Origin: Celeribacter marinus
GTDB lineage: Bacteria > Pseudomonadota > Alphaproteobacteria > Rhodobacterales > Rhodobacteraceae
Assembly: GCF_001308265.1 (NCBI RefSeq)
Contig: NZ_CP012023.1
Location: 2,804,932 to 2,868,931 of the forward strand
Direction of reading: 5' to 3'
DNA: 64,000 bases
Positions 42,141-63,547 of this stretch are shown piece by piece (position 1 is the first letter of the stretch; every line of letters starts with the position of its first letter). The position numbers and the translations under genes are program-made. Under the pieces are notes generated by a model. The model was not told the DNA's origin. It was given only the letters and a program-made list of their open reading frames with translations, and searched no databases.

Positions 42141-42215
42141 GCCCGGGTAGCTCAGGGGTAGAGCAGTGGATTGAAAATCCTCGTGTCGGTGGTTCGATTC
42201 CGCCCCTGGGCACCA
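42141..42215 (+). tRNA. tRNA-Phe (GAA)
   Basis: Complete cloverleaf: acceptor GCCCGGG/CCTGGGC, anticodon loop TTGAAAA (GAA), T-loop TTCGATT, discriminator A and encoded CCA. Its 3' 46 bases are repeated at 57980-58025, so it is the target of tandem integrative elements. Confidence 0.96.
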
Positions 42216-42413
42216 CTTTTACTAATAAAAACAATGACTTAGCCAATCGCCATGCGCGCTAAAGTTGTGCAATTCAAAAACACACCTTAAACACACTTTT
42301 TGCCGTGTTGCTGACTATTTTGCCTGTGGATTCGCTGTGTTGAACACAGTGTAGGCTGATGCTGTGTTGCGAACACTGTGTTGGCAGAGTTTTGGGCGAA
42401 CATAGTGAGGAAC
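42216..42413. repeat. Left arm sequence shared by both tRNA-Phe elements
   Basis: About 200 bp following the tRNA match 58026-58222 with few differences. It includes the palindromes CTGTGTTGAACACAG (42335-42349) and GTGTTGCGAACAC (42364-42376). No coding frame is evident. The rest up to 42454 shows nothing else. Confidence 0.8.
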
Positions 42414-42454
42414 ACAAGAAACGTCATTGCTGGTTTTCCGCCCAGAGCAGACAT

Positions 42455-42958
42455 TCACGCTAGGCGCGGCGAATGGCGGCTTCGAGCCCAACGCCAACCA
42501 AGATCGGTAGGGAACTTTTCGATCGCAAACATCATCGAATTTTGCTCCCATTTAACTTCGTTATGTTTGAAAGTTGGGTGAGCTGCGTTGTAGACATTAG
42601 CCTGATACGCTGGTCCTGAATATTGCCCATCTAGAGTTGCACGGATCAGTTTTATGACCATTGGATAACTTAACGCCCGAAACATCCACATGCAGCTGTT
42701 TCTATCTCCAAAATTCAAAGACGCACGCGCGCTGTAAAAGAAGCTAAGCCTTAACCCCATGTAGTATGGATAGCCCAAACTACTGGCAAATCCGTGCTCT
42801 GGTTCTTGTGCATGCTGCAAATACACGAGAACAGGATTGCTGGTTATGTTGTCCTCAACAATAACACCCAAGCCGCAAGCATGCCAAATATTGAGAAGTG
42901 AGGTTTCGTACGGGCTTAAGATCAGGCCGCTGTTTTGTGGTTGGCTCATAATATTCAT
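42455..42958 (-). CDS. Unknown 167-residue protein, third gene of AAA operon
   Basis: Not recognised. Start MNIMSQPQNSG at 42958 with AGGAG upstream, overlapping the AAA gene stop (ATGA), so translation is coupled. Rich in aromatic residues (YPYYMGLRLSFFYSARASLNFG). It has no signal peptide. AT-richer than core genes. Likely works with the ATPase. Confidence 0.65.
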   Translation of the reverse strand: MNIMSQPQNSGLILSPYETSLLNIWHACGLGVIVEDNITSNPVLVYLQHAQEPEHGFASSLGYPYYMGLRLSFFYSARASLNFGDRNSCMWMFRALSYPMVIKLIRATLDGQYSGPAYQANVYNAAHPTFKHNEVKWEQNSMMFAIEKFPTDLGWRWARSRHSPRLA

Positions 42959-43596
42959 GATGCTCTCCTGTGGCTTGCGATTACCATCTCTTCGAGGAGA
43001 TCAATGAGATCGCGGGCACTGCCTTGGAAGTTGTGCAGCATCTGCGCGACGTCCGCTTGTGTTGGAGATAAACCTTCGGCTTCTAGGATGGTCTTGGCGC
43101 GATCCACCCAATCCAAATTGGTTGGCGGAGTAAGATCTAGAACTCGAAAGCGTGACAGCATCGCCCCGATGATGCGGCTCTTGTGATTGGTGGTTGCAAC
43201 AAAGCGGACAAGATGGCGCTTGTCGTCCATAAACTCGCGAAACATGGGTTGCACGCTGCGCAAGTCCATCTCGTCAATCTCATTGATAACGATCAGCGCT
43301 TTATCTGCGTTGCCAAACATCTGATGGTTCACTTCAGACATAATCTTGGCTTCAAAGTCTTTGCCAAGACTGGCTGCGTTGAACTCCCACTGCATGTGTT
43401 GGATGTTCAACCTGTCGAAGTAGCTCTTGGCGATCACACGCGCAGCTTCTGTTTTGCCTGCGCCGGGCATACCAGCTAGTAGCACCGGCTTTGAGGGCGG
43501 TTGGGCGCAGTATTGTTTAATTACACCGGCATTAAGTGGGTCTGTAATAACGAGGTCAGAGAACACTTGTGGCAGATGCTTAAGGTCGAATGACAT
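42955..43596 (-). CDS. AAA+ ATPase, clamp-loader (RFC small subunit)-like
   Basis: 213 residues from MSFDLKHLPQ, with GGAGG five bases before the ATG. Walker A GMPGAGKT (42-49). The Walker B region reads LIVINEID (101-108) with Asn where Asp is usual but Glu kept. Sensor-1 ATTNHKS, then LSRFRVLDL with a possible arginine finger, and sensor-2 SARDL (about 193-197). The order and the RFVATTNHKSRIIG-type strand recall RFC/T4 gp44 clamp loaders more than MoxR. It probably remodels a DNA or protein partner encoded in this operon. Confidence 0.75.
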   Translation of the reverse strand: MSFDLKHLPQVFSDLVITDPLNAGVIKQYCAQPPSKPVLLAGMPGAGKTEAARVIAKSYFDRLNIQHMQWEFNAASLGKDFEAKIMSEVNHQMFGNADKALIVINEIDEMDLRSVQPMFREFMDDKRHLVRFVATTNHKSRIIGAMLSRFRVLDLTPPTNLDWVDRAKTILEAEGLSPTQADVAQMLHNFQGSARDLIDLLEEMVIASHRRAS

Positions 43597-43626
43597 GAAA
43601 GCCTCCATTTTTTAGTGTAGATGTCA

Positions 43627-43648
43627 GGGGCAACTCATCAGTTGCCCC
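43627..43648. promoter_or_regulatory. Intercistronic hairpin upstream of the AAA gene
   Basis: Perfect 9-bp inverted repeat GGGGCAACT/AGTTGCCCC with a 4-base loop between the first and second genes of the minus-strand operon. No T-run follows on the minus strand. It could tune expression of the ATPase relative to the upstream gene or protect the mRNA end (inference). Confidence 0.55.
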
Positions 43649-43661
43649 CAGTTGGCGAGCA

Positions 43662-44471
43662 TTAGCCGTAGAACTGTGCATCAGCTTTGCTGGGCGCATT
43701 TGCTGCAGTAACCGCTGCCTTGGAGCCGACCCGTATCATTTTGGAGGCAAACTCACGGACATCACGGGCTCGTTTGTCTGCCAGATCACCTGCATCAAGT
43801 TTGGCCAGGCTTTCTTGGGTGCGTTGATCAAGGTCTTTACCTGATGACACCAAGACAGCATCGATGATGCCTGCTTCATTGCAGCCGTAAACCACAGTGC
43901 CAGTGCCGTCGTCATGACAGCGCACCAAAGCTACCGCATAATCTTCTTCGTAATCCGTGTTGGCTTGAATAAAGGTCGGAAGCTCAAACGTAGACACACC
44001 GACTTGCACTTCTTGCAGGCCTTCAAGAGCCAGCTTGCGGTAGTCTTCTTTAGACATGGTTGTCTTCTTTGTGGCCGTTGGAACCCGGCGTACCTCTTCT
44101 AAACCACCGCATTCTTGCACATAGCTCGTAAAGCTTTGATCAGGTCCCTTCATGTCATGCGCAATTGCAACAACCCGGGCATAGGCTTCTTCACGGCGTC
44201 CCTGCCCCGCAAACACATAGCGGATCACCTTAAGAGCCAAGCTCGTATTTGCTTGGGTCTTAACCTCAAGATCCGTGAGTAAAGCAGCAAAAGCGCGGCG
44301 CTTGCCCACTTCTGCTTTGAGCTCTGCATACATAGCGTACACACCTTCAAGAATTGCATAAAGCTCATCGTTTGATGCCCGCAGTGTGCCTTCTTCCCAA
44401 GTCACACGGGAAGTGTGCATTGCGTCGAGGCGTTTGTGGATATCGGTTTTGATTTGAGATTGAACAGACAT
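43662..44471 (-). CDS. Unknown 269-residue protein, first gene of AAA operon
   Basis: Not recognised. Start MSVQSQIKTDIHKRLDAMH at 44471 after AAAGGAAG. The N-terminal half is helical with possible coiled coil (DELYAILEGVYAMYAELKAE). The C-terminal part is beta-rich (TGTVVYGCNEAGIIDAVLVSS) with an Ala-rich tail. No membrane segment. First gene of a minus-strand operon, divergent from the 256-residue gene across 180 bp. Confidence 0.65.
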   Translation of the reverse strand: MSVQSQIKTDIHKRLDAMHTSRVTWEEGTLRASNDELYAILEGVYAMYAELKAEVGKRRAFAALLTDLEVKTQANTSLALKVIRYVFAGQGRREEAYARVVAIAHDMKGPDQSFTSYVQECGGLEEVRRVPTATKKTTMSKEDYRKLALEGLQEVQVGVSTFELPTFIQANTDYEEDYAVALVRCHDDGTGTVVYGCNEAGIIDAVLVSSGKDLDQRTQESLAKLDAGDLADKRARDVREFASKMIRVGSKAAVTAANAPSKADAQFYG

Positions 44472-44652
44472 GGTTCTTCCTTTCAATTTTAGCTTGCAGC
44501 CACCTGCAAAGCGTTGAGTAAAAGCCCAAGTCCTTACGAACAGCGTTCTAAGGAAGCAGAGGGCCACAGCACTTTAGTGTCATGCTGAGACTCGTTTAAT
44601 CGAAGAAGTGCTCTAGATTTTGACTCCAAACGCGTAAAACGGAGATGGAGTC

Positions 44653-45423
44653 ATGCCCAAGGACTGGGCACATGAAGGCGCAGAGGCACTTAGCTTTGTG
44701 ACTGCTCCGCCCAACAACGCAGAGATTGCGTACACTCGCTTCAAGGGCCAGCGGAACCTGCCCTATAAGGAAGCCGAGCCCTATAAGTCTTCGCTTTATT
44801 ATTGGTGGTGGGCGTTCTTGCGACGCAACAAGCAGTACAAGAATACCTGCAACAAGTTTGGGGCTGGCAAACTTGCTCGCCTTTATCAGGACTTTGGCAA
44901 TATCTTTGATGGTACCTTCTTGGATTGGTGGCGTGATCACCAAAGCCTGTTTGCAGAGCAAAGCTGCGTAGGAGAAGACCCCGACAATCTTGGCCAATTA
45001 ATGTACCAAATTGACCCTTATCGGCCACTGCACCATATACAAGAAGAAGTTAAAGCACTGCACATGCGTGCTCAGGCAATTATGCCAGTTGGCGGCTCAA
45101 CCGTTACATCGACAGCCCAGTATCCAATTTATACTAATGTGTCTGCTCATACCCTACACCGGGTTTTAAAGCTGTGGGACCTCAAGCAAACACATCCAAC
45201 AGACAGCGCTTATAATCTAGGTATCTTGGCGGGTTTGCGTCCAAACTTGATGCCATTGTCTCAGTATGTTGCCACGCGCACATCAAAGGCGCTTGAGATT
45301 GAGCGCCACAACAAACGCGCCCGCATCAGCATATCCAATCAAACAAACCGATATTTGCGCACAGCTGAGCAATATATTGAGAATGTTGGGCACGGAGAGT
45401 TCCCCAAAGCCCTGCGCAGGTAA
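44653..45423 (+). CDS. Unknown 256-residue protein with YYWWWAFLRRN motif
   Basis: Not assigned to a family. The N-terminal third holds a Trp/Tyr-rich block SSLYYWWWAFLRRNKQY, then GKLARLYQDFGNI and FLDWWRDH ... LFAEQ. This pattern feels conserved among proteins of proteobacterial islands, but I cannot name it. The C-terminal part has LWDLKQTHPTDSAYNLG and a basic end. Probably soluble and nucleic-acid associated (inference). Divergent from the AAA operon; GGAGATGGAGTC precedes the ATG. Confidence 0.65.
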   Translation: MPKDWAHEGAEALSFVTAPPNNAEIAYTRFKGQRNLPYKEAEPYKSSLYYWWWAFLRRNKQYKNTCNKFGAGKLARLYQDFGNIFDGTFLDWWRDHQSLFAEQSCVGEDPDNLGQLMYQIDPYRPLHHIQEEVKALHMRAQAIMPVGGSTVTSTAQYPIYTNVSAHTLHRVLKLWDLKQTHPTDSAYNLGILAGLRPNLMPLSQYVATRTSKALEIERHNKRARISISNQTNRYLRTAEQYIENVGHGEFPKALRR

Positions 45424-45454: not shown

Positions 45455-45576
45455 CCAAACACGCTGTTTGGAAACGCCATGTTTGCTATTTTTGTCAAAC
45501 ACGCTGTTTGCAACAGGAGTGTTTGGGTAATTACAAATAAACGCCGTGTTAACACTGCATGTTAGAACACCGTGTT
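45455..45576. repeat. Cluster of AACAC/GTGTT palindromes
   Basis: Four palindromes between convergent genes: CCAAACACGCTGTTTGG (45455-45471), CAAACACGCTGTTTG (45496-45510), GTGTTAACAC (45546-45555) and AACACCGTGTT (45566-45576). All share AACA/TGTT half-sites, as do palindromes in both att arms (42335-42376 and 58145-58186). They lie between two gene ends, so they are not promoters; origin or partition sites are possible (inference). Confidence 0.75.
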
Positions 45577-45667: not shown

Positions 45668-45994
45668 TTAATACTCCTCTGCCAACATGATCGTAAGTAC
45701 ACGACTGGTCACAGTCGGATCGCTGGGATCAGGCGAATGCATCTGCAGGTCTACATCGTAGGTCTCGATCTTCCAGAAGATGGTTATATCGCCGTGATGG
45801 AATGATCCGAAGTCATGCTATCCATAAGGGTCCTTGTCCGGTGTGAAGGCGGTGTAACACTGCACTTGGCCCAGCACTGATGGTACGTCATCTAACGCCT
45901 GCACGCCTTGAGTGATCACCACACGGCACCCTGTGAATGAGCGCCGTGCGTGATCATTAAGTGCTGCTATTTTAGCTGTGGTTGCATCATGCAT
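45668..45994 (-). pseudogene. DUF3768-like protein with in-frame TAG
   Basis: A 108-codon frame starting MHDATTAKIAALNDHARRSF and ending [11 protein letters not shown] has the DUF3768 layout ([38 protein letters not shown]). It is interrupted once, at codon 59 (45818-45820), by TAG exactly where homologues usually have a charged residue. Both sides stay conserved and in one frame. The start overlaps the stop of the preceding DUF gene. Nonsense mutation, readthrough or sequencing error are all possible. Confidence 0.75.
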
Positions 45995-46445
45995 TTGCTG
46001 CCGCCTTAGCAGCTCCTGGCTTTAGGCGTGGTTGCCGCTCAGCTACTTTGGTGATCGCTACGTCCAACTCTCCTGCGGCAGCTGCGTTTAGAAAAGCATC
46101 AAGGACACCAGCTACGTCTTCTAGTGATTTGACTAGTACTGCGTTGTTGGTGCCATCAGCTGCAATCACACGCGCGCCGTATCGGCACTGCACATACCAG
46201 CCCCCGTCTTGCTCAAAGAACCATGGGCGTATTCTGCGGTGTGTTTTGACCATCACCCGTTCTCCCATGTCATTGGTCATCCACTTGTGTCGCTCAACGC
46301 GGTGATCTTCTTTCTTGAGTGCAGCCGCATGCACCAGCTTTTGCTCTTCAAGCCCCGCCACGAGTTTATCGCGCCGTGCTACAATGGGATCGCGCTTGGT
46401 GCTGCGATCAACGGTCTTGAATGTAAGCTTTGCCAGATGTGTCAT
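45987..46445 (-). CDS. DUF6641-like protein
   Basis: 152 residues. Basic N-terminus with DPIVARRDKLVAGLEEQKLVH, then RHKWMTNDMGERVMVKTHRR and RIRPWFFEQDGGWYVQCRYG, resembling DUF6641, a family of islands and plasmids in alphaproteobacteria with unknown role. C-terminal Ala-rich tail. The first gene of a two-gene unit with the DUF3768-like frame. Family name given from memory of the pattern. Confidence 0.65.
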   Translation of the reverse strand: MTHLAKLTFKTVDRSTKRDPIVARRDKLVAGLEEQKLVHAAALKKEDHRVERHKWMTNDMGERVMVKTHRRIRPWFFEQDGGWYVQCRYGARVIAADGTNNAVLVKSLEDVAGVLDAFLNAAAAGELDVAITKVAERQPRLKPGAAKAAANA

Positions 46446-46583: not shown

Positions 46584-46910
46584 ATGAGCATAAGACTACT
46601 AGAGCACTTACGAGACGAATTGATACACACTGGTATTGTCCAGAATACACCAGAATTTTGCCGCAGCTGGCTAGGACGCAGTGAAGGCTACATTCGCGTG
46701 TTGCGCTACAACCGCATAGAACCAAGTGTGGAGACGCTGGCGATCTGTTCTAACAAGCTGGGGCATTATGCGGCGCGACTGAATGGCTCAGAGGTTGAAC
46801 AGCACAAACAGTGGGCCGCTAGGTTAGTCGGCCTAAAGGCCCTCTGCGATCAGGCCATAGCCCGCCAAGCAGAAGCAGTGTGGCGTGAGCCTGAGAGGAT
46901 GGGCGCATGA
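46584..46910 (+). CDS. DUF6626-like small protein
   Basis: 108 residues beginning MSIRLLEHLRDELIHTGIVQ, with FCRSWLGRSEGYIRVLRYNRIEPSVETLAICSNKLG, a helix-turn-helix-like arrangement seen in DUF6626 proteins of alphaproteobacterial islands. Probably DNA-binding. Divergent from the DUF6641-like gene, with about 140 bp of shared promoter region. A likely terminator lies 27 bp downstream. Confidence 0.6.
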   Translation: MSIRLLEHLRDELIHTGIVQNTPEFCRSWLGRSEGYIRVLRYNRIEPSVETLAICSNKLGHYAARLNGSEVEQHKQWAARLVGLKALCDQAIARQAEAVWREPERMGA

Positions 46911-46963: not shown

Positions 46964-47033
46964 AGCGGGAAGTACTTACAGAAGTTAGGTGGTGATTTTG
47001 CATCACCCCATTTTGCTAAGCAGGGTGCTGCGC

Positions 47034-47390
47034 ATGGATGACCGAGACGAACTGCGCAGACTAATTGATGTGATTGAGAAAGGCTCTGGCACGGGCAGTC
47101 TTGAGCAAGCCGTTGATGACATTAAGACCTTTGCCAATACCGCAAGCTTGCTAGCTAACAAGTTGGACACACGGCTAAAAGGTGGCGACGTCAAAGCAAA
47201 GAAGCAGCCAAAGTCGCGGATGGGTAAGGCTATTGCAGCTGTGCCAAAGCCAAGTGCACCTAAGCCCCCTACGCCAGCCACGCAGCCGTCTGCGTCTGGG
47301 ATGCCTCAAGTAACCAGTACGGCAACGTCACAAGCAGATTACGATAAGCTTAAGCCACAGGGAACACAGGGAACTCTGGGTGGGATGTAG
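47034..47390 (+). CDS. Hypothetical protein with Pro/Ala/Thr-rich tail, 118 residues
   Basis: Not recognised. Start MDDRDELRRLIDVIEKG at 47034. The first 60 residues are helical and acidic, then a Lys-rich patch and a disordered Pro, Ser and Thr tail ending GTLGGM. No membrane segment. The last gene of the unknown module before the non-coding stretch and IS91. Confidence 0.5.
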   Translation: MDDRDELRRLIDVIEKGSGTGSLEQAVDDIKTFANTASLLANKLDTRLKGGDVKAKKQPKSRMGKAIAAVPKPSAPKPPTPATQPSASGMPQVTSTATSQADYDKLKPQGTQGTLGGM

Positions 47391-48005: not shown

Positions 48006-49199
48006 TCATGCGGCCTGTTTCCTTGGTGGAGCGCGGGATCGGGGAACCTGGCCGCGCTTGAACGTTTCGATGATCAGCATTGTGCCGCCGCAACAGGGGC
48101 ACGGTTCCCGCAATGTAAATGGTGTGGGATCATCCTCGGATGGTGGTTCTTGCTCTGGCGGGCTCGCCCCAATCAGGGCTCGGACCTTTGCAATGTTGGT
48201 TTTACGTTGCGCGGACGCCAGCAGGCCATAGTGCCGGATCCGGTGGAACCCGTCGGGGAGAACATGCATCAGGAAACGGCGGATGAACTCGTCCGTTGTC
48301 AGGCGCATCACCTTTTGCCGGTCACCACTCTTGATGCGATAGTCCTTCCATCGGAACGCGACGGTGTTTGCATCGGCGCTGAAGAGGCGCTGGTTCGAGA
48401 TCGCGACACGGTGCGTGTAACGACTGAGGTAGGCTAGAACTGCCTCGGGTCCGCCGAACGGTGGTTTGGCATAGACCACCCATTCGATTTTACGGAACGG
48501 GGCCAACCAGTTTGCAAATGCACCGGTCTCAGCCAGCCCTTTTAGGTCACTATAAAACGCCAGATCACCCGAGCGATGCAACGCCATCAGTCCTTCGATG
48601 AACAGGCGGCGGAACAGCCGTGACAGCACCCGCACATGCAGGAAGAACCCCGGCTTGCACGCCACCCATTGGTTGCCGTCGCGCGACAAGCCACCGCCGG
48701 GGACGATCATGTGGATGTGTGGGTGATGGGTGAGCGCAGACCCCCATGTGTGCAACACGCTGGTCATGCCAACGCGAGCACCCATGCGCTTGGGATCAGC
48801 GGCGATGGTCGTCACGGTCTCGGCGGACGCCCGGAACAGCAGGCCGTAAATGGCGCGCTTGTTCCAGAGGGCGATCCTGGCAATCTCGGCTGGTAGCGTG
48901 AAGACGACATGGAAATACTCGACGGGCAGCAAGTCTTCGGCCCGTGCCGCCATCCAGTCGCGCGCAGCGGGTCCCTGACACTTTGGACAGTGCCGGTTTT
49001 TGCAACTGTTGTATGCGATGTGCTGATGGCTGCATTTGGTGCAAGCCGCCACATGCCCGCCGAGCGCCTCTGTTCGGCAGGCTTCTATCGCTGACATCAC
49101 CTTAAGCTGGCTCAGGCTGATATGCCCGGCATTGGCCCGCCGCCACGCGGGACCATGTTTGCGGAATATGTCAGCAACCTCCAGTCTGGGGCGGGGCAC
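48006..49199 (-). CDS. IS91-family transposase
   Basis: 397 residues from a GTG start. N-terminal zinc ribbon (CTKCSHQHIAYNSCKNRHCPKC spread over about 53-75), then the HUH endonuclease core with HHPHIHMIVPGGG supplying the metal His residues, and a YLSRYTHRVAISNQRL block with the catalytic tyrosine region. Intact and full length. It lies ten bases after the recombinase gene. Confidence 0.93.
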   Translation of the reverse strand: MPRPRLEVADIFRKHGPAWRRANAGHISLSQLKVMSAIEACRTEALGGHVAACTKCSHQHIAYNSCKNRHCPKCQGPAARDWMAARAEDLLPVEYFHVVFTLPAEIARIALWNKRAIYGLLFRASAETVTTIAADPKRMGARVGMTSVLHTWGSALTHHPHIHMIVPGGGLSRDGNQWVACKPGFFLHVRVLSRLFRRLFIEGLMALHRSGDLAFYSDLKGLAETGAFANWLAPFRKIEWVVYAKPPFGGPEAVLAYLSRYTHRVAISNQRLFSADANTVAFRWKDYRIKSGDRQKVMRLTTDEFIRRFLMHVLPDGFHRIRHYGLLASAQRKTNIAKVRALIGASPPEQEPPSEDDPTPFTLREPCPCCGGTMLIIETFKRGQVPRSRAPPRKQAA

Positions 49200-49209
49200 T
49201 CCCCGCCCG

Positions 49210-50097
49210 TCACCGCGGTCGCGTCTTGCGTGTCTGTAGGTTCAACTGCTTGAGGGCCTCGAACGGGCTGGTCGTATCCCGGATCATCTTGGTGGCGACC
49301 TTAGTGTACTGCGCGGTGGTTGTCAGTTTGGCGTGACCAAGTAGCACTTGGATAACCCGTACATCCGTGCCCGCTTCCAGCAGATGGGTGGCAAAGCTGT
49401 GCCGCAGGGTGTGCAGCGTTGCGGGCCTGTTGATCCCGGCCATGCGTTTGGCCGATGTAAAGGCCCGGTTGAGTTGACGTGGCGAGATCGGATTGATCTT
49501 GGGTTTACCCGGGAACATCCACCCTTCAGGCCGTGCCTCGCACCAATAGTCACGCAACAGATCGAGCAATCCCGGCGACAGCATTACCTTACGATCCTTC
49601 CGCCCCTTGCCCTGCACGACGTGGATCAACATCCGGTCACTGTCGATGTCGCCGGTCGTCAGATTGCAAACCTCAGAGGCGCGCAGACCCGCACCATAAG
49701 AGATACTGAGCGCCGCGCGATACTTGAGCCCGGGACCAGGTGCTACGGCCAGAAGTTCTGAGACTTCCTCAACGCTGAGCACAGCGGGCAGCTTGCGCGG
49801 CTCGGTGCGGAATTGCATGTACTTCTTCATCTCATCACGCCCGCAGGTCATCGAGAAAAAGAAACGCAGAGCAGTGATCCGCGCGTTGTAAACCGAGGGC
49901 GTGACCTCGGTATCCGTCATATGAAGTTGATACGCGCGCAGCTCCTCACGCGTAGCCGTATCCGGTGAATGCCCCAGAAACGCAGCAAAATCCTTGACTG
50001 CCCGGATATGAGATCGCTGGGATTGGTGCCCCAGACCCCGAATGCGCATGTCTTCGATCATCCGCTCCCGAAGCGGTGTTGTTCTCTCGCTGACCAT
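49210..50097 (-). CDS. Tyrosine recombinase of the IS91 unit
   Basis: 295-residue XerC/D-like recombinase. N-terminal SAM-like core-binding domain (HIRAVKDFAAFLGHSP). Catalytic Arg in GAGLRASEVCNL, Lys in GKGRKDRKV, HTLRHSFATHLLEAG and LGHAKLTTTAQYTKV with Tyr. AGGAGG site before the ATG. In this IS91 subgroup such a gene regularly precedes the transposase; its part in transposition is unclear. It is not expected to act at tRNA-Phe. Confidence 0.9.
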   Translation of the reverse strand: MVSERTTPLRERMIEDMRIRGLGHQSQRSHIRAVKDFAAFLGHSPDTATREELRAYQLHMTDTEVTPSVYNARITALRFFFSMTCGRDEMKKYMQFRTEPRKLPAVLSVEEVSELLAVAPGPGLKYRAALSISYGAGLRASEVCNLTTGDIDSDRMLIHVVQGKGRKDRKVMLSPGLLDLLRDYWCEARPEGWMFPGKPKINPISPRQLNRAFTSAKRMAGINRPATLHTLRHSFATHLLEAGTDVRVIQVLLGHAKLTTTAQYTKVATKMIRDTTSPFEALKQLNLQTRKTRPR

Positions 50098-50274: not shown

Positions 50275-50793
50275 TCAGATCCTGCGCTTCGCCAGCTCTC
50301 GGTAGAGCGCTGGTGGCGAAACGCCGATCCTTTCTGCCACCATGATCCATTCACCCTTGGGCGGTTTGCCATGAAGGTCCAGCCAAGCATCAAGCCGATC
50401 CGCCACACGCCTGAAACGCAGGATTTCAATCCGCGCCCGCTGCGCCTGCACTTCCTTTGCATGGGTTTCAATTAAGCTCAGGGCGGCCTCCGGCATGTTG
50501 CGGATAGCGCTCAAAAACTTAGCACGAGGCATGCTGGCAACTTCAGCGTCAAAGCGCGCAACAGCGTCACAGTGATAGATTTTCGCAAACAAGGAAGCCT
50601 CGGCCAAAGCCATGCCTGCCGTGGCAACGTGCAGTGTCAGCGGCACACCATCTGTCAGCGGGCGCTCCAATGCGACCGCGCCGGATCGCACCAGATACAT
50701 AGACTCCACTTGCTCCGCTTGACGGAACACCGCCGCATTTTTCGCTATCCTACGGACGGGTGCGCCATCGAAAATATCTATCCAGGTCGACAT
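50275..50793 (-). CDS. Crp/Fnr-family regulator, short
   Basis: 172 residues from MSTWIDIFDGAPVRRI. Cyclic-nucleotide-binding-like barrel (FRQAEQVESMYLVRSGAVALERP) followed by a helix-turn-helix cut short (WIMVAERIGVSPPALYRELAKRRI). There are no Fnr-type N-terminal cysteines. A start at 50844 is possible. It is divergent from the copper cluster and may be its second regulator; the ligand is unknown. Confidence 0.78.
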   Translation of the reverse strand: MSTWIDIFDGAPVRRIAKNAAVFRQAEQVESMYLVRSGAVALERPLTDGVPLTLHVATAGMALAEASLFAKIYHCDAVARFDAEVASMPRAKFLSAIRNMPEAALSLIETHAKEVQAQRARIEILRFRRVADRLDAWLDLHGKPPKGEWIMVAERIGVSPPALYRELAKRRI

Positions 50794-50860
50794 GATAGAG
50801 ATCATATGGCGCTTGATACTTGTCTGATAGTCTTTTGATGACAATTTGAGAGGCTAAAAC

Positions 50861-51448
50861 ATGCAAGCAAAAATTATCCTAACTGTAATTGCATTTACGG
50901 GCGGCACGGCGCTCGCGTTCGCGCAAACCAACCATGCCGGACACGATAATGGTATGGATCATTCAGCACACGGCCAAGATCAGATAACGAATGCCGATGT
51001 ATTGTCAGAACCTGGGCAAGGCGCTTTCGCAGCTTTGTCCGAAGTCGTACGCGTCCTTGAAGCTGATCCTAGTACGAACTGGGCCAAAGTCGATCTGACT
51101 GGCTTGCGAGCGCATCTGATCGATATGGACCGGTTGGTCTCGGATGCGGTGGTCTCGCAAACTGACCTCCCGAACGGGATAAGCGCCGCCGCGACTGGCG
51201 ATGCAGAGACAATCGAGACGCTTCGGCGGATGGTGCCTGCCCATGCGGCGCAGCTCGCGCGTGATGATCGTTGGGCTGTACAAGCCACCCAAACCGACGA
51301 GGGCATTGAGCTGCGGGTGACGAGCGATGATCCCGCTGTTGTCGCCCGGATCAAAGGCCTAGGTTTCTTTGGATTGATGGCCAGTCAGGATCATCATCGT
51401 GAGCATCACTTGATGATGGCACTCGGGGAAGATGCCCACGCGCATTGA
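50861..51448 (+). CDS. Secreted His/Met-rich protein of the copper cluster
   Basis: 195 residues with a signal peptide (MQAKIILTVIAFTGGTALAFA). The mature protein starts with a His-, Met- and Asp-rich stretch (HAGHDNGMDHSAHGQDQ) and ends with DHHREHHLMMALGEDAHAH, both suited to metal binding. The middle part is a helical domain found beside copper genes, without a named function. Probably a periplasmic copper buffer (inference). First gene of the cluster. Confidence 0.75.
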   Translation: MQAKIILTVIAFTGGTALAFAQTNHAGHDNGMDHSAHGQDQITNADVLSEPGQGAFAALSEVVRVLEADPSTNWAKVDLTGLRAHLIDMDRLVSDAVVSQTDLPNGISAAATGDAETIETLRRMVPAHAAQLARDDRWAVQATQTDEGIELRVTSDDPAVVARIKGLGFFGLMASQDHHREHHLMMALGEDAHAH

Positions 51449-51492
51449 TATGCTGCGACAGCAGGTAACAGACGTGTGACTTGCAAAACCAT

Positions 51493-51513
51493 ACATACCC
51501 CATATAGGTATGT
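51493..51513. promoter_or_regulatory. CsoR-type operator 1
   Basis: Palindrome with arms ACATACC and GGTATGT around CCATATA, directly before the small membrane protein gene at 51517. It shares the TACCCCATAT core with the site at 56286-56306 next to the CsoR-type gene. Assigned as its binding site by similarity and position. Confidence 0.65.
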
Positions 51514-51516
51514 TTC

Positions 51517-51831
51517 ATGTTTATGGCTCGCTTCATCATGGTCGTCATCTTGACGCTATCCGCATCGCTCTCCGGAGCGATGGATGCGGGACATATGCCG
51601 TCTACCGATCATAACCACGCTGCGGCTGAAATCATGGCGGATGAACAACCCGCATGTTGTCAGGACAGCAGTGAACGCACGCAGACCTGTCATGCCGTGC
51701 CAGCTCTGCTTCCGGCATCGGAACCGACCAGCACTCCGCCATTTGCGGGTAAAGGTGTAGTCTTCGCGTCTGGCATACTGCTGACCGGTATTCAGCCATC
51801 CCGTCCTCTCGATCCACCCCGCGCGGTGTGA
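51517..51831 (+). CDS. Small exported/membrane protein, Cys-His rich
   Basis: 104 residues. Hydrophobic N-terminus (MARFIMVVILTLSASLSGAM, from the second ATG at 51523), then HMPSTDHNHAAAE and CCQDSSERTQTC with several possible metal ligands, and a short hydrophobic segment at about 75-90. Resembles small proteins placed first in copper operons. It stands right behind the CsoR-type palindrome, so it is probably metal induced. Confidence 0.55.
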   Translation: MFMARFIMVVILTLSASLSGAMDAGHMPSTDHNHAAAEIMADEQPACCQDSSERTQTCHAVPALLPASEPTSTPPFAGKGVVFASGILLTGIQPSRPLDPPRAV

Positions 51832-51939
51832 TGCCTGCTGTGCCTCTTTGTGGTGCAGCAAAGATTAGTCATCACACCAAAACGGGCTTTGCCCGCAGCC
51901 CTCATTAATTGGGCACGCATCTTTCGAGAGGAAAACCTT

Positions 51940-52434
51940 ATGAAATCAATCAAGACACTTCTGGCCTTCACACCCGCCGCTGCACTTGCCCTTGGACTGG
52001 CATCCTTTGGATGGGCGAGTATGGCCCATGCCGACAGCCATTCACATATGGCTGACTACGGCACCATGCACGTAACCAAAAGTCCTACATGCGGATGCTG
52101 CGGCGCTTGGGTGGCACTGGCCCGCGAGGAAGGCTACGACATTGAAGTGACCGACACTGCGGACGTCACAAGCGTGAAATTGGACGCGAACATTCCTGGC
52201 AATATGTGGGCCTGTCATACCGCCATGATCGACGGCTACGTCGTCGAAGGCCATGTGCCGTTTGCAGCCCTTGCAAAACTGCTGGAAGAGCGCCCGAACG
52301 TCACAGGCATCGCTGTTCCGGGAATGCCCGGCGGCTCGCCCGGCATGGGAAATGATCCAACTGCACGCTATGACGTGATCTCCTTCGGCGGCGATGCGAA
52401 TGAAGGCGACGTCTTCTATCAGGCCGGTTTGTGA
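51940..52434 (+). CDS. DUF411 metal-binding protein
   Basis: 164 residues with a signal peptide ending near SMAHA. DUF411 core: TMHVTKSPTCGCCGAWVALA with CGCC, then GNMWACHTAMIDGYVVEGHVP, both carrying Cys and His ligands. DUF411 proteins are copper-linked periplasmic proteins of unclear mechanism. Start ATG 51940 after GAGAGG. It overlaps the cytochrome c gene by four bases. Confidence 0.88.
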   Translation: MKSIKTLLAFTPAAALALGLASFGWASMAHADSHSHMADYGTMHVTKSPTCGCCGAWVALAREEGYDIEVTDTADVTSVKLDANIPGNMWACHTAMIDGYVVEGHVPFAALAKLLEERPNVTGIAVPGMPGGSPGMGNDPTARYDVISFGGDANEGDVFYQAGL

Positions 52435-52895
52435 AACGGCTTGTATTCATAGCTGGTGGCGGAGCGGCTCTGATCGGGGCCGCTCTCTATGCCTACACCA
52501 CGGTCTCGGCTGAAACTGATCGGGTTGTCCTGAAAGATACCGATCCAGTAATCGTAGCACTCGGGGCAAGTGTCTATGAGGCGAATTGTGCCTCGTGCCA
52601 CGGGGCTAATCTGGAAGGCCAAGCCAATTGGCGCTCGCCTGATGAAGATGGACGTCTCCCCGCTCCGCCCCATGATGAAACCGGACACACATGGCACCAT
52701 GACGGGGACACGTTGTTTCGGCTCACCAAATACGGGACGGGTGCCCTTATCGGCGATCCCGACTACGCTTCGAACATGCCAATCTACGAAGGCGTTCTGA
52801 GCGATGAAGAGATTATCGCCGTTCTCAGCTACATCAAATCGACCTGGCCGGACGACGTCCGCGCCCGTCATGACGAAATGGAAAACAGACAATGA
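52431..52895 (+). CDS. c-type cytochrome
   Basis: 154 residues from a GTG start overlapping the DUF411 stop. Signal anchor (LVFIAGGGAALIGAALYAY), a single heme site CASCH (about residues 49-53) and a likely axial Met in SNMPIYEG. It could take electrons from or hand them to the multicopper oxidase, but that is inferred from neighbourhood only. Confidence 0.85.
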   Translation: MKRLVFIAGGGAALIGAALYAYTTVSAETDRVVLKDTDPVIVALGASVYEANCASCHGANLEGQANWRSPDEDGRLPAPPHDETGHTWHHDGDTLFRLTKYGTGALIGDPDYASNMPIYEGVLSDEEIIAVLSYIKSTWPDDVRARHDEMENRQ

Positions 52896-53236
52896 AACAA
52901 AGCATTTTTGCAATCCTTGCGCTGATCGCAACCGCGACCGGTGCCTGGGCGCACTCCAAAGCCGAAGAAACAACTCCGGCAAATGAGGCGACAGTAGCAT
53001 CGGTTGAAGCCATCGAAATGCGCTTTGATGATCCGATGCGCGTGATCGCGATTACGCTGACCGGACCGGACGGCGAAGTGGATATTGAGCGTGAAACCGG
53101 CATGGACGCCGTGACGGAGTTCCGTGCACTGCCACCTGCTGATCTGCCCGACGGGGCCTATACGGTTGATTGGCGTGGTCTATCTGCAGACGGTCACCCC
53201 ATGCAGGGCACCTTCGGCTTCAAAGTAGCCGATTGA
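52892..53236 (+). CDS. copC: Copper resistance protein CopC
   Basis: Periplasmic copper-binding beta-barrel protein. 114 residues; signal peptide cut after GAWA gives a mature N-terminus HSKAEE whose His1 is the usual Cu(II) ligand. The second conserved region DGHPMQGTFGF is at the C-terminus. Overlaps both neighbours (cytochrome before, copD after). Confidence 0.92.
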   Translation: MKQSIFAILALIATATGAWAHSKAEETTPANEATVASVEAIEMRFDDPMRVIAITLTGPDGEVDIERETGMDAVTEFRALPPADLPDGAYTVDWRGLSADGHPMQGTFGFKVAD

Positions 53237-54120
53237 TCCGCGTGGAAGGTCTGGCACCAATCGACGCATGGGCCATTGCGGCCATCATTGCGAAGGCAGC
53301 GGGCTACGGCGCGGCGCTTCTTGCAATGGGCGGGCCACTATTCATTTTGGCCTTTCCAAACGCATCCTCCGATGTGCAGAAACTAGCTCGGAAAATCGCT
53401 GTGATCGCCGCTTTGATCGGACTTGCAGTGCTGGCATTGCGGTTTGGCATCCGGGCCGCCCGTATCTCCGGGATGGGTTTGCCGGGTGCACTCGATCCTA
53501 TGATGCTTGGCTTTGTCTGGGACAGTCCGCTTGGGACAGCCGCAATCTGGCGCGTTTTGGGTGAACTTCTTGTCCTTGCCATGCTGATAAGGGGTGTCGT
53601 TGGCCTCGGGATGGGGTTGGTTGGGGCGCTCTTGATTGCGGTGTCTTACACGTTCGTCGGCCATTCTCTTGGTGACCTTCGCTGGCTGCTCGCGTCGTTA
53701 TTGACACTGCACCTTCTGGCGGCGGCGTTCTGGATTGGCGCACTGGCCCCTCTCGGTCGCGCGGTCGGCCAGCCAGACGGCGCATTGCTGCTTCATCGCT
53801 TTGGAAACGTCGCCAGCGTGACGGTCGCACTGCTTGTCGTCGTTGGGTTGGTCTTTGCGTGGCTCATGACCGGATCACTCTCCGCGCTGCTTTCAACCGC
53901 TTACGGCTGGACGCTTCTCGCCAAGCTCGGCGTGGTAACAGGGTTGATGGCCCTTGCCGGCCTCAACAAATGGCGGCTCGTTCCGGCGCTTGCATCTGGC
54001 GATTCCACTGCTGCGTCCCACTTACGCCGCTCAATTCAAATCGAAACCGTGGCCGTTCTGCTCATCTTGCTGGCAACCGCAACGCTGACCTCGATCACCA
54101 CGCCTCCGGTCAACATGTGA
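53233..54120 (+). CDS. copD: Copper resistance membrane protein CopD
   Basis: 295 residues with about eight membrane segments and CopD-family blocks (FVGHSLGDLRWLLASLLTLHLLAAAFWIGALAPL, given here only as position about 135-170, with conserved His). The start appears to be TTG at 53233, overlapping the copC stop; GTG at 53242 is the alternative. CopC and CopD together import or transfer copper across the inner membrane. Confidence 0.88.
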   Translation: MIRVEGLAPIDAWAIAAIIAKAAGYGAALLAMGGPLFILAFPNASSDVQKLARKIAVIAALIGLAVLALRFGIRAARISGMGLPGALDPMMLGFVWDSPLGTAAIWRVLGELLVLAMLIRGVVGLGMGLVGALLIAVSYTFVGHSLGDLRWLLASLLTLHLLAAAFWIGALAPLGRAVGQPDGALLLHRFGNVASVTVALLVVVGLVFAWLMTGSLSALLSTAYGWTLLAKLGVVTGLMALAGLNKWRLVPALASGDSTAASHLRRSIQIETVAVLLILLATATLTSITTPPVNM

Positions 54121-54133
54121 AAAGGAAACTCTC

Positions 54134-55561
54134 ATGACCTCCTTATCTCGACGATCAATTCTGAAAGGAGCTGCTGCGCTTGGCGGCGCAACCCTGTTAT
54201 CCAGACCCTCTTTAGCCTATGAAGGCTTGCCAATCCTGCGCGCGGCACCTGCATCCGCGCAGCTTGCATCTGCCGGATATCCGCCAACGCCTGTCTGGGC
54301 TTACGCGACCGAGGCGGAAGGCAACGTTCCCGGCCCGGAAATTCGTGTGCAAGCGGGCGCGCGGGTCAACTTCCAACTGGCCAACGACCTGCCGCAACCA
54401 ACCTCTGTGCACTGGCATGGCATTCGCATTGAAAATGCCATGGATGGCGCGGCACCTTTGACACAAGCCCCCGTCCCGCCCGGCGATACGTTTGACTATG
54501 ACTTCGTAGCCCCCGATCCTGGGACATATTGGTATCACTCTCACAACCGCAGCACGGAACAAGTCGCGCGTGGCCTCGCGGGTCCATTGATCGTGGAAGA
54601 TCGCGAACCGTGGCTCGGGGAACCTAGTGCAGCAACCCGCGAGCTGGTCCTTATTCTTGATGATTGGCTGCTGGATAGCGACGCAAGAATTATTGAAAAC
54701 AGATGGGAAGACCTGCATGCAGCCTCGCATAGTGGGCGCATGGGAAACACGGTCACGGTGAACGGCGCTGCCTATCCAGAATTGGATATCCAGCCCGACG
54801 AGCGTGTGCGGTTGCGGATCATCAACACAGCCACGGATCGGATCATGCCCTTGTCGTTGCCGCATCTGTCGGCGCGGCTGATTGCACTAGACGGCCACCC
54901 TGTTACGCCACGCGAAATCGACACTCTTATCCTCGGACCCGCTCAAAGGGCGGATGTGGTGATCGACGGTCGCGTGGACGGTGAGGCCCGCGCCAGCCTG
55001 CTGCTTGATCCCGGTAATGGAGAATGGGTGGAAATTGCTGGCTTCATCCATTCGGGTGACACTTTGCCGTCACGCGGCACTGATGTCCGCCCTTTACCTG
55101 CGTGGGGCACACTTCCCGTGCCAGACCTATCAGACCCGCAACGCGAAACGCTGTTGATGGAAGGCGGAGCCATGCGCGGGATGTTGGAAACTCGTTTTGG
55201 CGGCGAAACAATGGGATTCCGCGAACTTGCAGCCAACGGTATGGTTTGGGCGTTCAACGGTGCCGCGAACGAAATGGATAAGCCAATGTTCCAGGCGGCT
55301 CTGGGCCGAACTGTGCAATTGAAAATGTCAAACCGATCCGTGTTCCCGCATGCAATCCACCTGCATGGTCACCATTTTACCGTCCTGTCCAAAAGTGGCG
55401 CTGCAAACATCGAAGGTGACGTGCGCGATACTGTGCTGATCGGCGCGGATGAAACCGTCGAGATTGCATTTGTTGCTGACAATCCCGGCCAGTGGATGAT
55501 CCATTGCCACATGCTATCGCATCAGAAGTCGGGCATGATGGCTTGGTTTAAGGTCGCCTGA
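54134..55561 (+). CDS. Multicopper oxidase, Tat-exported
   Basis: 475 residues with a Tat signal (SRRSILKGAAALGGATLL). All four copper-ligand regions are present: HWHG (93-96), YHSH (134-137), HAIHLHGHHF (about 410-419) and HCHMLSHQKSGMM (457-469), with the T1 Cys at 458. Similar to CueO/SufI-like oxidases that turn Cu(I) to less toxic Cu(II). No long Met-rich insert is seen. AAAGGA site; TGATG overlap with the next gene. Confidence 0.92.
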   Translation: MTSLSRRSILKGAAALGGATLLSRPSLAYEGLPILRAAPASAQLASAGYPPTPVWAYATEAEGNVPGPEIRVQAGARVNFQLANDLPQPTSVHWHGIRIENAMDGAAPLTQAPVPPGDTFDYDFVAPDPGTYWYHSHNRSTEQVARGLAGPLIVEDREPWLGEPSAATRELVLILDDWLLDSDARIIENRWEDLHAASHSGRMGNTVTVNGAAYPELDIQPDERVRLRIINTATDRIMPLSLPHLSARLIALDGHPVTPREIDTLILGPAQRADVVIDGRVDGEARASLLLDPGNGEWVEIAGFIHSGDTLPSRGTDVRPLPAWGTLPVPDLSDPQRETLLMEGGAMRGMLETRFGGETMGFRELAANGMVWAFNGAANEMDKPMFQAALGRTVQLKMSNRSVFPHAIHLHGHHFTVLSKSGAANIEGDVRDTVLIGADETVEIAFVADNPGQWMIHCHMLSHQKSGMMAWFKVA

Positions 55562-55962
55562 TGTTCTGGATGCCTCTCATATCAGGGGCTATACTCGGCG
55601 GCGCGACTATCGCACTCATGGAAATCGGTGGCGTGATGCGTCAGCGGGGAACATGGGCGACAACAATGGTCGCTATCGCATCATTCTACGTAGTGTTCGC
55701 CATCCAGACCGGCGATACGCTGGAAATCATCGTTCATAGCGGTCTCGCAGCCGGGTTCGTCATTCTCGCGATTGTTGGCGCACGCGCGTCATCCTGGATA
55801 CTCGCTGCTGCTTTGCTCGGACATGGATTATTCGACGTTGCAGTCGGATCGGTTCTCTCGAACCCTGCCCCGAACTGGTGGGGGCCGTTCTGTCTGGGGA
55901 TCGACGTGATACTGGCGCTTGCTTTGGCCGTGATGCTCTGGCGCGGACAAACCCTCGACTGA
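55561..55962 (+). CDS. Small membrane protein (DUF6010-like)
   Basis: 133 residues with four hydrophobic segments (about 5-25, 32-50, 55-75, 105-128). Start shares bases with the oxidase stop. The order of segments and GHGLFDVAVGS block resemble DUF6010, assigned tentatively. Last gene of the forward copper operon; converges with the CsoR-type gene. Confidence 0.65.
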   Translation: MFWMPLISGAILGGATIALMEIGGVMRQRGTWATTMVAIASFYVVFAIQTGDTLEIIVHSGLAAGFVILAIVGARASSWILAAALLGHGLFDVAVGSVLSNPAPNWWGPFCLGIDVILALALAVMLWRGQTLD

Positions 55963-55966
55963 ACAG

Positions 55967-56278: not shown

Positions 56279-56285
56279 TCTGGTT

Positions 56286-56306
56286 ATATACCCCATATGG
56301 GTATAT
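56286..56306. promoter_or_regulatory. CsoR-type operator 2
   Basis: Palindrome with 8-bp arms ATATACCC and GGGTATAT around CATAT, lying between the divergent CsoR-type and DUF305 genes. It would allow autoregulation and control of the right-hand genes. Confidence 0.72.
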
Positions 56307-56320
56307 TGGAGAGACAGACA

Positions 56321-57674: not shown

Positions 57675-57979
57675 AAGGAAGCAACATACCGTGACTTCGG
57701 CGCAAGCAGACGTTGGTGGTGCGCGACCTAATGGCAGCTTAGTACCGCATAGCAGTTATATGAACGCGCAACATTGAGAATCCGCTTAATTAGCCAAAAC
57801 CAGCGCTTGTGCTTCAATCGTTGTCGAGAGAAGCTTCAATCGAGGTATGGGGCTATCATAGTGTTCAACACGGCGTTTCCGCCCTGCCCTTACAATGACA
57901 TCAAAAACACACTTATACGCACACCAAAAATATATTCGCTTAAGCCATTGATTATAAATGTATAATTTATACCGCCTCC
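57675..57979. other. Right end of the first tRNA-Phe element
   Basis: About 300 bp. It begins with a good ribosome site and a 28-codon GTG frame ending at 57777 that looks like a gene remnant. After that the DNA is AT-rich without coding character up to the att copy. Confidence 0.4.
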
Positions 57980-58025
57980 ATTGAAAATCCTCGTGTCGGT
58001 GGTTCGATTCCGCCCCTGGGCACCA
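57980..58025. repeat. att copy: 3' end of tRNA-Phe
   Basis: 46 bp identical to 42170-42215, from the anticodon stem to CCA. The 5' half of the tRNA is absent, so it is not a second tRNA gene. Junction between the two tandem elements. Confidence 0.92.
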
Positions 58026-58222
58026 TTTTTACCAACAAAAACAATGACTTAGCCGAGCGCAATGCGCGCTTAAGTTGTGTAATTCAAAAACACACCTTAA
58101 ACACACTTTTTGCCGTGTTGCTGACTATTTTTACTCTGGATTCGCTGTGTTGAACACAGTGTAGGCTGATGCTGTGTTGCGAACACTGTGTTGGCAGAGT
58201 TTTGGGCGAACATGGTTCGGGA
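58026..58222. repeat. Left arm of the second tRNA-Phe element
   Basis: Near copy of 42216-42413, including CTGTGTTGAACACAG (58145-58159) and GTGTTGCGAACAC (58174-58186). Similarity ends around 58222. The following DNA to 58396 has no gene that I can support. Confidence 0.8.
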
Positions 58223-58396
58223 CACAGAGAAACAATTCATAGGCAACGACTGGGCCGCAGCGTCATAACCGTATTTCTACGATTTGACGCAATCATCACA
58301 TCTCAATATGATATGTGTGTACTCATAATTGGTAATGACTTTGGCGTGTTTTAAATTCTTTTTTGATGTGCCAACAAAATTTGGAACTATAGAACC

Positions 58397-59813: not shown

Positions 59814-61055
59814 ATGCGGCAGCTGCGTGATGATACACATCTGATACTGGACGGCGAGGTGCGGGTGTATCGGCGTGAGCGCAGCAAGCGCTGGCAGGCA
59901 GCCTTTGTAATTGATGGGCACACCATCCGCATCAGCACGGGCAAGCGTGACTTAGCTGAGGCCAAGGAATATGCCCGCGACACGTTTTTGGAATACAAGT
60001 TCCGCCACAAAAACGATCTGCCTGTTGTGACCAAGAAGTTCTCTGATGTTGCTAAGCTGGCCATTGCCGACATGCGCAAGCAATTGGATGCGAGTTTAGG
60101 GCGTAAAGTGTTTGCTGATTACATCGTGTGTGTTGAGCGCTACCTCATCCCCTTCTTCGGTGCACAGTATGTGACCACCATTGATTATGAGAAGGTGCAA
60201 CAGTTCTACGAGTGGCGGCGTGCTAAGATGGGGCGTGAGCCTAAGGCCTCAACGCTGAATACCCATAACTCAGCCATGAACCGTGTGTTTGAAGAAGCGG
60301 TCGCGCGGGGCTTTATCGCGCATAAGAATGTGCCACTGCTGGTAAACCGCGGCGAGAAGAGCGAACGACGTCCAGACTTTACCCGCGAAGAATACGCCAC
60401 GCTCATCCGCAAGCTGCCCAGCTGGATCGATGCAGGCAAGGCAGGCAAACCCACAGACATGCGCCACCTTATGCGGGACTATGTGTTGATAATGGCCAAT
60501 ACAGGCATGCGGCACGGCACAGAGGCGCTGAACCTACGCTGGAAGCATGTGACCCTGTTCGAGGAAAAGGATCTGCAGTATCTAGAGATGAGCGTCTCAG
60601 GCAAGACTGGTCGCAGGGACATCATCTGCCGCAGTGGAACCATCAATTACCTAAAACGCATTCACGAGCGCAGTGACGACATACGGCACGTCCCTTTTGA
60701 AGACTTGCTCAAGCAGCCTGTTGATCTGCCTGTGTTCAGATTGCCAGATGGCACTGTCTCAAAGAACATCCACCAGACGTTCCGCAAGTTCCTCACAGAC
60801 ACGGGACTGATCACCTGCCCACGCACGGGCCAGAACCGCACACTCTACAGCCTGCGTCACACATACGCGACCTTTGCGCTGCTCAACGATGGTATGGATA
60901 TCCACGCGCTGGCTGTGCAGATGGGCACATCGATTGGCATGATTGAGCGGCATTACAGCCATCTCACGCCAAGGCTCAAGAAGGATATGCTCACAGGCAA
61001 GCGGTATGAGTTGTCGCGGGATGAGTTTGAGGACCAGCATGCCATTAGCGAGTGA
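59814..61055 (+). CDS. Tyrosine integrase of the tRNA-Phe element
   Basis: 413 residues. N-terminal arm-binding region (DGEVRVYRRERSKRWQAAFV), core-binding domain, and catalytic domain with Arg in NTGMRHGTEALNLRW, SLRHTYATFALL (His-x-x-Arg), GTSIGMIERHYSHL with the Tyr nucleophile. Start ATG 59814 after GAGGAG. Its length and place about 1.8 kb from the att site make it the likely enzyme for insertion at tRNA-Phe. Confidence 0.9.
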   Translation: MRQLRDDTHLILDGEVRVYRRERSKRWQAAFVIDGHTIRISTGKRDLAEAKEYARDTFLEYKFRHKNDLPVVTKKFSDVAKLAIADMRKQLDASLGRKVFADYIVCVERYLIPFFGAQYVTTIDYEKVQQFYEWRRAKMGREPKASTLNTHNSAMNRVFEEAVARGFIAHKNVPLLVNRGEKSERRPDFTREEYATLIRKLPSWIDAGKAGKPTDMRHLMRDYVLIMANTGMRHGTEALNLRWKHVTLFEEKDLQYLEMSVSGKTGRRDIICRSGTINYLKRIHERSDDIRHVPFEDLLKQPVDLPVFRLPDGTVSKNIHQTFRKFLTDTGLITCPRTGQNRTLYSLRHTYATFALLNDGMDIHALAVQMGTSIGMIERHYSHLTPRLKKDMLTGKRYELSRDEFEDQHAISE

Positions 61056-62980: not shown

Positions 62981-63547
62981 CTACAGCAGCTCCACAGCCT
63001 GGCTAAGCTGCTCAGAATTCACATCGATATATCTCTGGGTAGTGCTTATGTGACTATGCCCCGCCAACTCGGCCAGCAACCGCACCCCCACGCCTTTGTT
63101 TGCCAGTCGCGTGATGTAAGTACGTCTTCCCGAATGGCTTGAAGCGTCCTTGAGCCCTACCGCTTTGTAGATGTCGAGAAACAGCTGGCACATGGTGTTG
63201 GCTGAGAAGTGCCCACCTTTTTGGCTCTCAAACAACGCATGATGCGGCTTGGCTGTGCGGATTGATGCGCTGTACTCCAGCAGAGCTTTGCGTAAGCGCT
63301 GATTGAGATACACCGTGCGTGTGTGCCCGCCTTTGCTTTGCTCGGCTGTAAGTATAAACTGCTCACGCACGTTGCCCGTTTCATCAAACACATTGCCCAC
63401 AGTGAGCGCTGCAATCTCCTTGGCCCTCAGCCCTGCGTAGAAGCTCGTCAGTATAATAGTCTCATCCCGTGTTGGATGACGACGACTGCGACAGTACTGT
63501 ATAACCCTGCGCAGCTGCGCATCATTGAGTGTCTGTGCTTGGCGCAT
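62981..63547 (-). CDS. Small tyrosine recombinase
   Basis: 188 residues, catalytic domain only: Arg in SFYAGLRAKEIAAL, Lys in SKGGHTRTV, HSGRRTYITRLA, LAGHSHISTTQRYIDV with Tyr. There is no core-binding domain, as in the short recombinases carried by integrative elements. It may act in dimer resolution or belong to a further element. Confidence 0.85.
   Translation of the reverse strand: MRQAQTLNDAQLRRVIQYCRSRRHPTRDETIILTSFYAGLRAKEIAALTVGNVFDETGNVREQFILTAEQSKGGHTRTVYLNQRLRKALLEYSASIRTAKPHHALFESQKGGHFSANTMCQLFLDIYKAVGLKDASSHSGRRTYITRLANKGVGVRLLAELAGHSHISTTQRYIDVNSEQLSQAVELL

Follow-up and report, generated by a model that had tools for sequence, protein, structure and literature searches.

Gene organization of the locus

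Between positions 42,455 and 45,423 of the window, by which we mean the whole 64,000-nucleotide stretch of Celeribacter marinus DNA analysed here, lie four open reading frames whose coordinates and strands agree with the first-pass annotation:

42455..42958, minus strand: 167-aa accessory gene, overlapping the AAA+ gene by 4 nt; not conserved
42955..43608, minus strand: AAA+ ATPase, RFC/gp44-like, without collar; probable start 43596, 213 aa
43662..44471, minus strand: P269, obligate partner of the AAA+ protein; no known family; N-terminal domain helical
44653..45423, plus strand: P256 (256 aa), divergent; third gene of the module that is swapped

The three minus-strand genes had been described as a unit with overlapping starts and stops. 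This is true of the AAA+ and 167-aa genes, but P269 is separated from the AAA+ gene by a 53-bp gap, and the 167-aa gene was rejected as a member of the unit because no relative of its product was present in any element copy examined; in other copies, the slot after the AAA+ gene holds unrelated genes (243- or 263/244-aa). The claimed operon is really a two-gene pair plus one non-conserved gene. As GGAGG stands just before the ATG at 43596 and the resulting length is that of its relatives, the AAA+ protein is probably 213 aa long. A hairpin (GGGGCAACT-GATG-AGTTGCCCC) in the gap at 43609-43661, which separates the stop codon of P269 from the start of AAA+, possibly tunes the P269:AAA+ ratio. The conserved unit extends past 45423, to about 47390, taking in genes for DUF6641, DUF6626 and P133.

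A clamp-loader-like ATPase without a collar

The resemblance of the ATPase to clamp loaders, proposed earlier from its motif order, was borne out by both sequence and fold. The protein matches Pfam AAA (6e-12), the PHROG clamp loader family (phrog_168, 2.6e-25) and the NCBIfam RFC small subunit (2.7e-16), and among PDB sequences it matches RFC (7e-27). Its AlphaFold model (mean pLDDT 91.8) has as its top fold match 2chg, an RFC construct comprising domains 1 and 2 (Z 20.2, 3.1 Å, 206 residues), and all best fold matches are RFC, gp44 or DnaX subunits. Across 16 relatives there is no variation in Walker A, the Glu/Asp of Walker B, sensor 1, the Arg finger (SRC-like) or the sensor 2 Arg (invariant G46, G49, K52, E110, D112, R153 and R199), so the protein is probably an active, oligomerising ATPase.

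The C-terminal collar (domain III), the part that builds clamp-loader pentamers, is absent, as the AAA+ proteins stop after the lid at 213-236 aa, compared with about 320 aa for RFC and gp44. Because this defining feature is missing, we describe the protein as resembling a clamp loader and do not class it as one. No sliding-clamp gene was noticed within the conserved block, and the host beta clamp is a possible partner. The phage proteins that the ATPase matches, at 24-28% identity, are clamp loaders from large phages. AAA matches on rhizobial plasmids were rejected as relatives, since the one with annotated neighbours adjoins ybaB and recR and is therefore dnaX.

The other three proteins had been said to match no recognised family, and indeed none has a meaningful match in Pfam, PHROG, NCBIfam or PADLOC. 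For P269 and P256 the same is true of PDB, and neither contains a known initiator (Rep) domain. The structure model of P269 is confident for residues 1-126 only, and we claim no fold for it, because the best candidate, a TetR-type helical bundle, scored a structural Z of 6.0, which is within background. P269 was absent from the phage records and viral contigs searched, which lends no support to a phage or prophage. It was also absent from the plasmid collection, and neither a free circle nor a plasmid form came to light. The one match of P256 is weak, to a Bradyrhizobium plasmid protein with no AAA or P269 gene annotated nearby. The tryptophan-rich N-terminal stretch of P256 recalls a domain of the FseA-type activators of ICEMlSymR7A; none of 15 P256 relatives has a meaningful Pfam match, and we regard the likeness as a lead only.

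Tandem integrative elements at tRNA-Phe

At tRNA-Phe the window contains integrative elements in tandem, and the AAA+/P269/P256 module is the core of the first of them, element 1. The first-pass annotation was thus correct in describing an element-borne module with a clamp-loader-like ATPase. The features that delimit and accompany the elements are as follows:

42170..42215, plus strand: attL of element 1, the 3' 46 bp of tRNA-Phe (tRNA 42141-42215)
42216..42422: left att arm of element 1, with palindromes at 42343 and 42372 and AAAAACACACC-type repeats
45456..45576: iteron-like array, four palindromes at 45458, 45498, 45540 and 45566; spacing 40/42/26 bp
45818..45994, minus strand: DUF3768 gene, truncated (58 aa, about 110 in relatives)
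45987..46445, minus strand: DUF6641-related backbone gene (Pfam 1.3e-4, below the curated cut-off; phrog_31551 1.7e-14; synteny)
46584..46910, plus strand: DUF6626 backbone gene (Pfam 2.2e-38; synteny)
46989..47390, plus strand: P133 backbone gene (synteny); probable start 47034
57867..57877: right-arm palindrome of element 1, 1 mismatch, 113 bp before attR
57980..58025, plus strand: attR of element 1 and attL of element 2, a 46-bp perfect direct repeat
58026..58233: left att arm of element 2, with palindromes at 58153 and 58182
59814..61055, plus strand: intL of element 2, 413-aa tyrosine integrase (Pfam 7e-7, phrog_1 2e-40)
62981..63547, minus strand: int188 of element 2, 188-aa tyrosine recombinase (Pfam 2e-29, phrog_216 1.7e-44); also present in the majority of elements with sufficient flanking sequence

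A third perfect copy of the 46-bp repeat lies at genome positions 2886953-2886998 and a 45-bp copy at 2892557, so that the repeats delimit tandem segments of 15.8, 24.0 and 5.6 kb. The left arms are alike, with the 254 bp at the left end of element 1 being 93.7% identical to 57980-58233, and AAAAACACAC(C/T)-type repeats, which are probable arm-type integrase sites, occur in both att arms (58026-58125 and 57903-57930). In an empty-site comparison, the left flank and tRNA were conserved in genus relatives; the right flank was not comparable. The third segment (L042 2999-8556, 5.6 kb), a degenerate remnant in the tandem, carries IS21-like genes and the same left arm.

Most relatives with enough flanking sequence have their own tyrosine integrase, as does element 2. 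Element 1 has neither intL nor int188, and its sole tyrosine recombinase is that of its IS91-type insertion; given the loss of both genes, it would be either defective or reliant on recombinases acting in trans. The insertion itself (48006-50097) consists of an IS91-type transposase (Y2_Tnp) and the adjoining tyrosine recombinase; a second copy is suggested by a similar recombinase match at another place in the genome (C1:41501). The cargo of element 1 (50275-57674) encodes copper-handling proteins: CopD, a multicopper oxidase, a DUF411 protein, a cytochrome c and a CsoR-type repressor.

Distribution and layout of related elements

Proximity to tRNA genes, which had been proposed as a check on the module, holds beyond this genome: related elements are bounded by tRNA 3'-end repeats, with att direct repeats of 45-50 bp at six sites in different genomes. 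Att-bounded relatives lie at tRNA-Pro (L083, 10.5 kb), tRNA-Cys (L085, L036) and tRNA-Phe (L066, L037), and intL sits at one end of them.

The pair of AAA+ and P269 genes with a divergent P256 was found in about 30 integrated elements, mainly in Rhodobacteraceae. A P269 profile scan of 84,980 genomes returned 19 loci, all or nearly all from Rhodobacteraceae or related MAGs, and broader samples placed the module in other alphaproteobacterial families (G476, G244) and in more distant proteobacterial families (G657, G733, G791), the taxonomy of G-labelled genomes being given by family number only. AAA+ matches were present in 129 of 149 family genomes, but nearly all were weak (1e-4 to 1e-8) and fell in longer ORFs (many of 435-480 aa); only G045 and G148 held true relatives.

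Co-occurrence across genomes had also been suggested as a check, and the AAA+ gene adjoins P269 in all of the approximately 30 loci examined except L082, a divergent copy. Since this adjacency persists down to 26-30% identity in many genera, the pairing is conserved far beyond chance. Several copies can share a genome: a second one, with an AAA+ protein 79% identical, lies just beyond the window in the host genome, another Rhodobacteraceae genome has three, and alleles about 75-80% identical coexist within one genome.

The elements follow a recurrent layout, running as P133, DUF6626, P256 (divergent), P269, AAA+ and accessory genes, and continuing through DUF6641/DUF3768 and sometimes an HUH-like protein to int188, intL and the tRNA. 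Different elements fill the accessory slot with unrelated genes, of which the 167-aa gene is one. Because the backbone genes also occur in islands that lack the AAA+/P269 module (L109, L110), the module is core to one group of these elements but not to the whole set. The L109 island, another in the same genome (5396-16546; genome 621-632 kb), contains DUF6641, HUH-like, DUF6626-like, int188 and intL genes without AAA+ or P269, and carries a 615-aa ParA-like/TPR protein. The HUH-like protein is found in many sister elements (for instance, L033 9347-9988, L035 14698-15324 and L037 11854-12477) and is absent from element 1 of the window; its motifs FGTLKF, FH[IV]HF and Y..xEYW are invariant or nearly so, and it has no Pfam or PDB match reaching the cut-off. 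A ParB/RepB-like partition gene lies beside P133 in the tRNA-Cys lineage only (L036 13621-14544; L054-L056). We found no description of this element family in the open-access library searched, and the family of tRNA-integrated mobile elements is apparently undescribed.

Exchange of the module as a block

We compared pairwise protein identities among 13 Rhodobacteraceae loci by Mantel correlation, in which permutations treat loci as exchangeable. P269 and AAA+ identities are tightly correlated (r = 0.98), and P256 follows either of them (r = 0.78). The backbone genes (DUF6641, DUF6626, int188, intL) likewise correlate among themselves (r = 0.69-0.92), whereas module and backbone are decoupled (r = −0.01 to 0.25). 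Elements L063 and L033 illustrate this, being 96% identical in int188, 94% in intL and 90% in DUF6641 but only 30% in AAA+, 29% in P269 and 21% in P256. The genes of the P269/AAA+/P256 module co-diverge and are decoupled from the backbone, so the module is swapped as an allele, moving as one block between elements that are otherwise alike. P256 can also be exchanged on its own, since L061 and L062 retain the P269/AAA+ pair (84-86% identical) while their P256 proteins are 21% identical.

Palindromic sites in the att arms and the array

Allowing at most one mismatch, the AACACNGTGTT palindrome occurs 9 times in the window, compared with 1.6 expected, and no shuffle reached 9. Across nine loci, we counted 15 sites in the att arms (3.5 kb), 13 immediately 3' of P256 (1.5 kb) and 7 in the other 199 kb, so that the density in the arms and in the array is about 120-250 times that elsewhere, although homologous copies among the loci are not independent and Fisher p-values for these densities overstate the enrichment. 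Eight of the 12 exact sites in the whole host genome fall in the tRNA-Phe tandem and the other four are C/G-centred; in three whole genomes, A/T-centred exact palindromes occur only within or near elements.

Array palindromes are spaced 26-42 bp apart, with a 40/42/26-bp pattern in the window clade that the window and L033 have in common. In most Rhodobacteraceae copies the array occupies a gap between convergent genes, and for this reason it is not a promoter or operator in those copies. Array similarity follows AAA+ and P269 (r = 0.79/0.74) more than the backbone (r = 0.32-0.41), and the array is unchanged between L061 and L062 despite their different P256 proteins. No array can be recognised in L065 or in the more distant L082-L085. 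A perfect DnaA box stands beside the array in the L036/L056 lineage only, and the first 50 bp 3' of P256 have a GC content of 28-40% in the window clade (22% in L035), which is not seen in others. In several elements, palindromes also flank att at −113 and +128/+157, beside the putative arm-type repeats. These arm palindromes are kept in L063 and L037 though the AAA+ and P269 proteins there share about 30% identity with those of the window type, and the att arms and intL associate with the backbone and not with the module.

Possible roles of the module

Earlier, a role in replication, copy control or defence had been proposed. We favour replication or copy control because of the obligate pair, the iteron-like array in a convergent, non-promoter gap and the allele swapping; defence was not supported. 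At a probability of roughly 0.4, the P269/AAA+ module would be a replication or maintenance unit of the excised circle that acts on the iteron-like sites. Starting from what the sequence contains, namely tRNA integration, an obligate P269/AAA+ pair, block exchange, a linked array and the catalytic ATPase residues, we infer the following course. The element would be excised as a circle by one or more tyrosine recombinases, and P269 and/or P256 would recognise the array sites. In an ATP-dependent step, the AAA+ protein would load a host factor for replication, either helicase or sliding clamp, on the circle, so that the pair at the array would serve as an iteron-type replication or maintenance unit whose different alleles behave like incompatibility types. 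More tentatively, the module may represent a replication module of a new type, in which a collarless RFC-like ATPase, its partner and the array form a swappable replication/incompatibility determinant of a widespread, undescribed tRNA-integrated family.

Several findings weigh against a replicon. Some elements encode the separate HUH-like protein, a possible replication initiator, the module is absent from some islands that share the backbone, and neither a free circle nor a plasmid form turned up. Some loci have no recognisable array, the DnaA box is restricted to one lineage, and the absence of a collar, a noticed clamp gene and a known initiator domain in P269 or P256 also counts here. The presence of the palindrome in the att arms is in keeping with control of recombination, and because of it the main rival is that the module proteins bind both arm palindromes and array to control excision and integration, with the AAA+ protein remodelling the recombination complex or setting an excision switch and the array being an accessory or titration site. 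The confinement of A/T-centred exact sites to the elements and their surroundings agrees with this proposal. We nevertheless consider it doubtful, as the arm palindromes persist alongside highly diverged AAA+ and P269 proteins, the module, unlike the att arms and recombinases, does not follow the backbone, and no AAA+ protein is known to act as a directionality factor for tyrosine recombinases.

Allele swapping with a matched array, together with tandem and multiple copies in one genome, might instead reflect superinfection control or incompatibility without replication, in which module alleles recognise the array and exclude or regulate related elements; this is rather unlikely given that alleles about 75-80% identical coexist, and it leaves the RFC-like ATPase unexplained. 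That the module serves defence, as an AAA+ protein plus sensor/effector, would suit its highly divergent alleles, its placement in an island and the restriction-modification genes among nearby cargo in other elements. PADLOC matches, however, were weak (best 1.7e-5 over 42 residues), several of them covering the Walker A region alone, no effector domain was found, and the module belongs to the core and not to the cargo and has a DNA array linked to it, making this role improbable. It is equally hard to credit that AAA+ and P269 act with the array like a partition complex, aiding segregation or dimer resolution of the circle, since the ATPase is of the RFC type and not the ParA/ParM type, even though the array lies outside promoters and the ParB/RepB-like gene adjoins the module in the tRNA-Cys lineage.

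Mobile islands that lack conjugation and virion genes are common, and little is known of the way in which they persist; this family offers a clear, testable case in which a core module travels as a block with its DNA sites. Should the AAA+ pair drive replication of the circle, integrative elements would have recruited clamp-loader-type ATPases as dedicated determinants of their replication, and the module alleles would provide a typing scheme like plasmid incompatibility groups.

Comparison with known systems

With the RFC small subunit, T4 gp44 and DnaX, the AAA+ protein has in common the AAA+ domain and lid, Walker A and B, and the Arg-finger and sensor-2 arginines, and differs in lacking the collar, in its unrelated partner, in the lack of a noticed clamp gene in the block and in residing on an integrative element. 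Tycheposons resemble the present elements in their tRNA borders, tyrosine recombinase and cargo genes; the paper describing them contains no AAA or clamp term, and the comparison made here is of described features (PMC10872708). That islands can replicate themselves is established by SGI1, an integrative mobilizable element with a plasmid-like replicon, which replicates from its own oriV and RepA (PMC7826253). Whereas that RepA is IncN-related, the elements studied here have an RFC-like ATPase and P269, with no known Rep domain, and would replicate only if our favoured reading is right. SGI1 shares with them the form of a chromosomal island with att repeats and a recombinase, to which the present family adds an iteron-like array in its core module.
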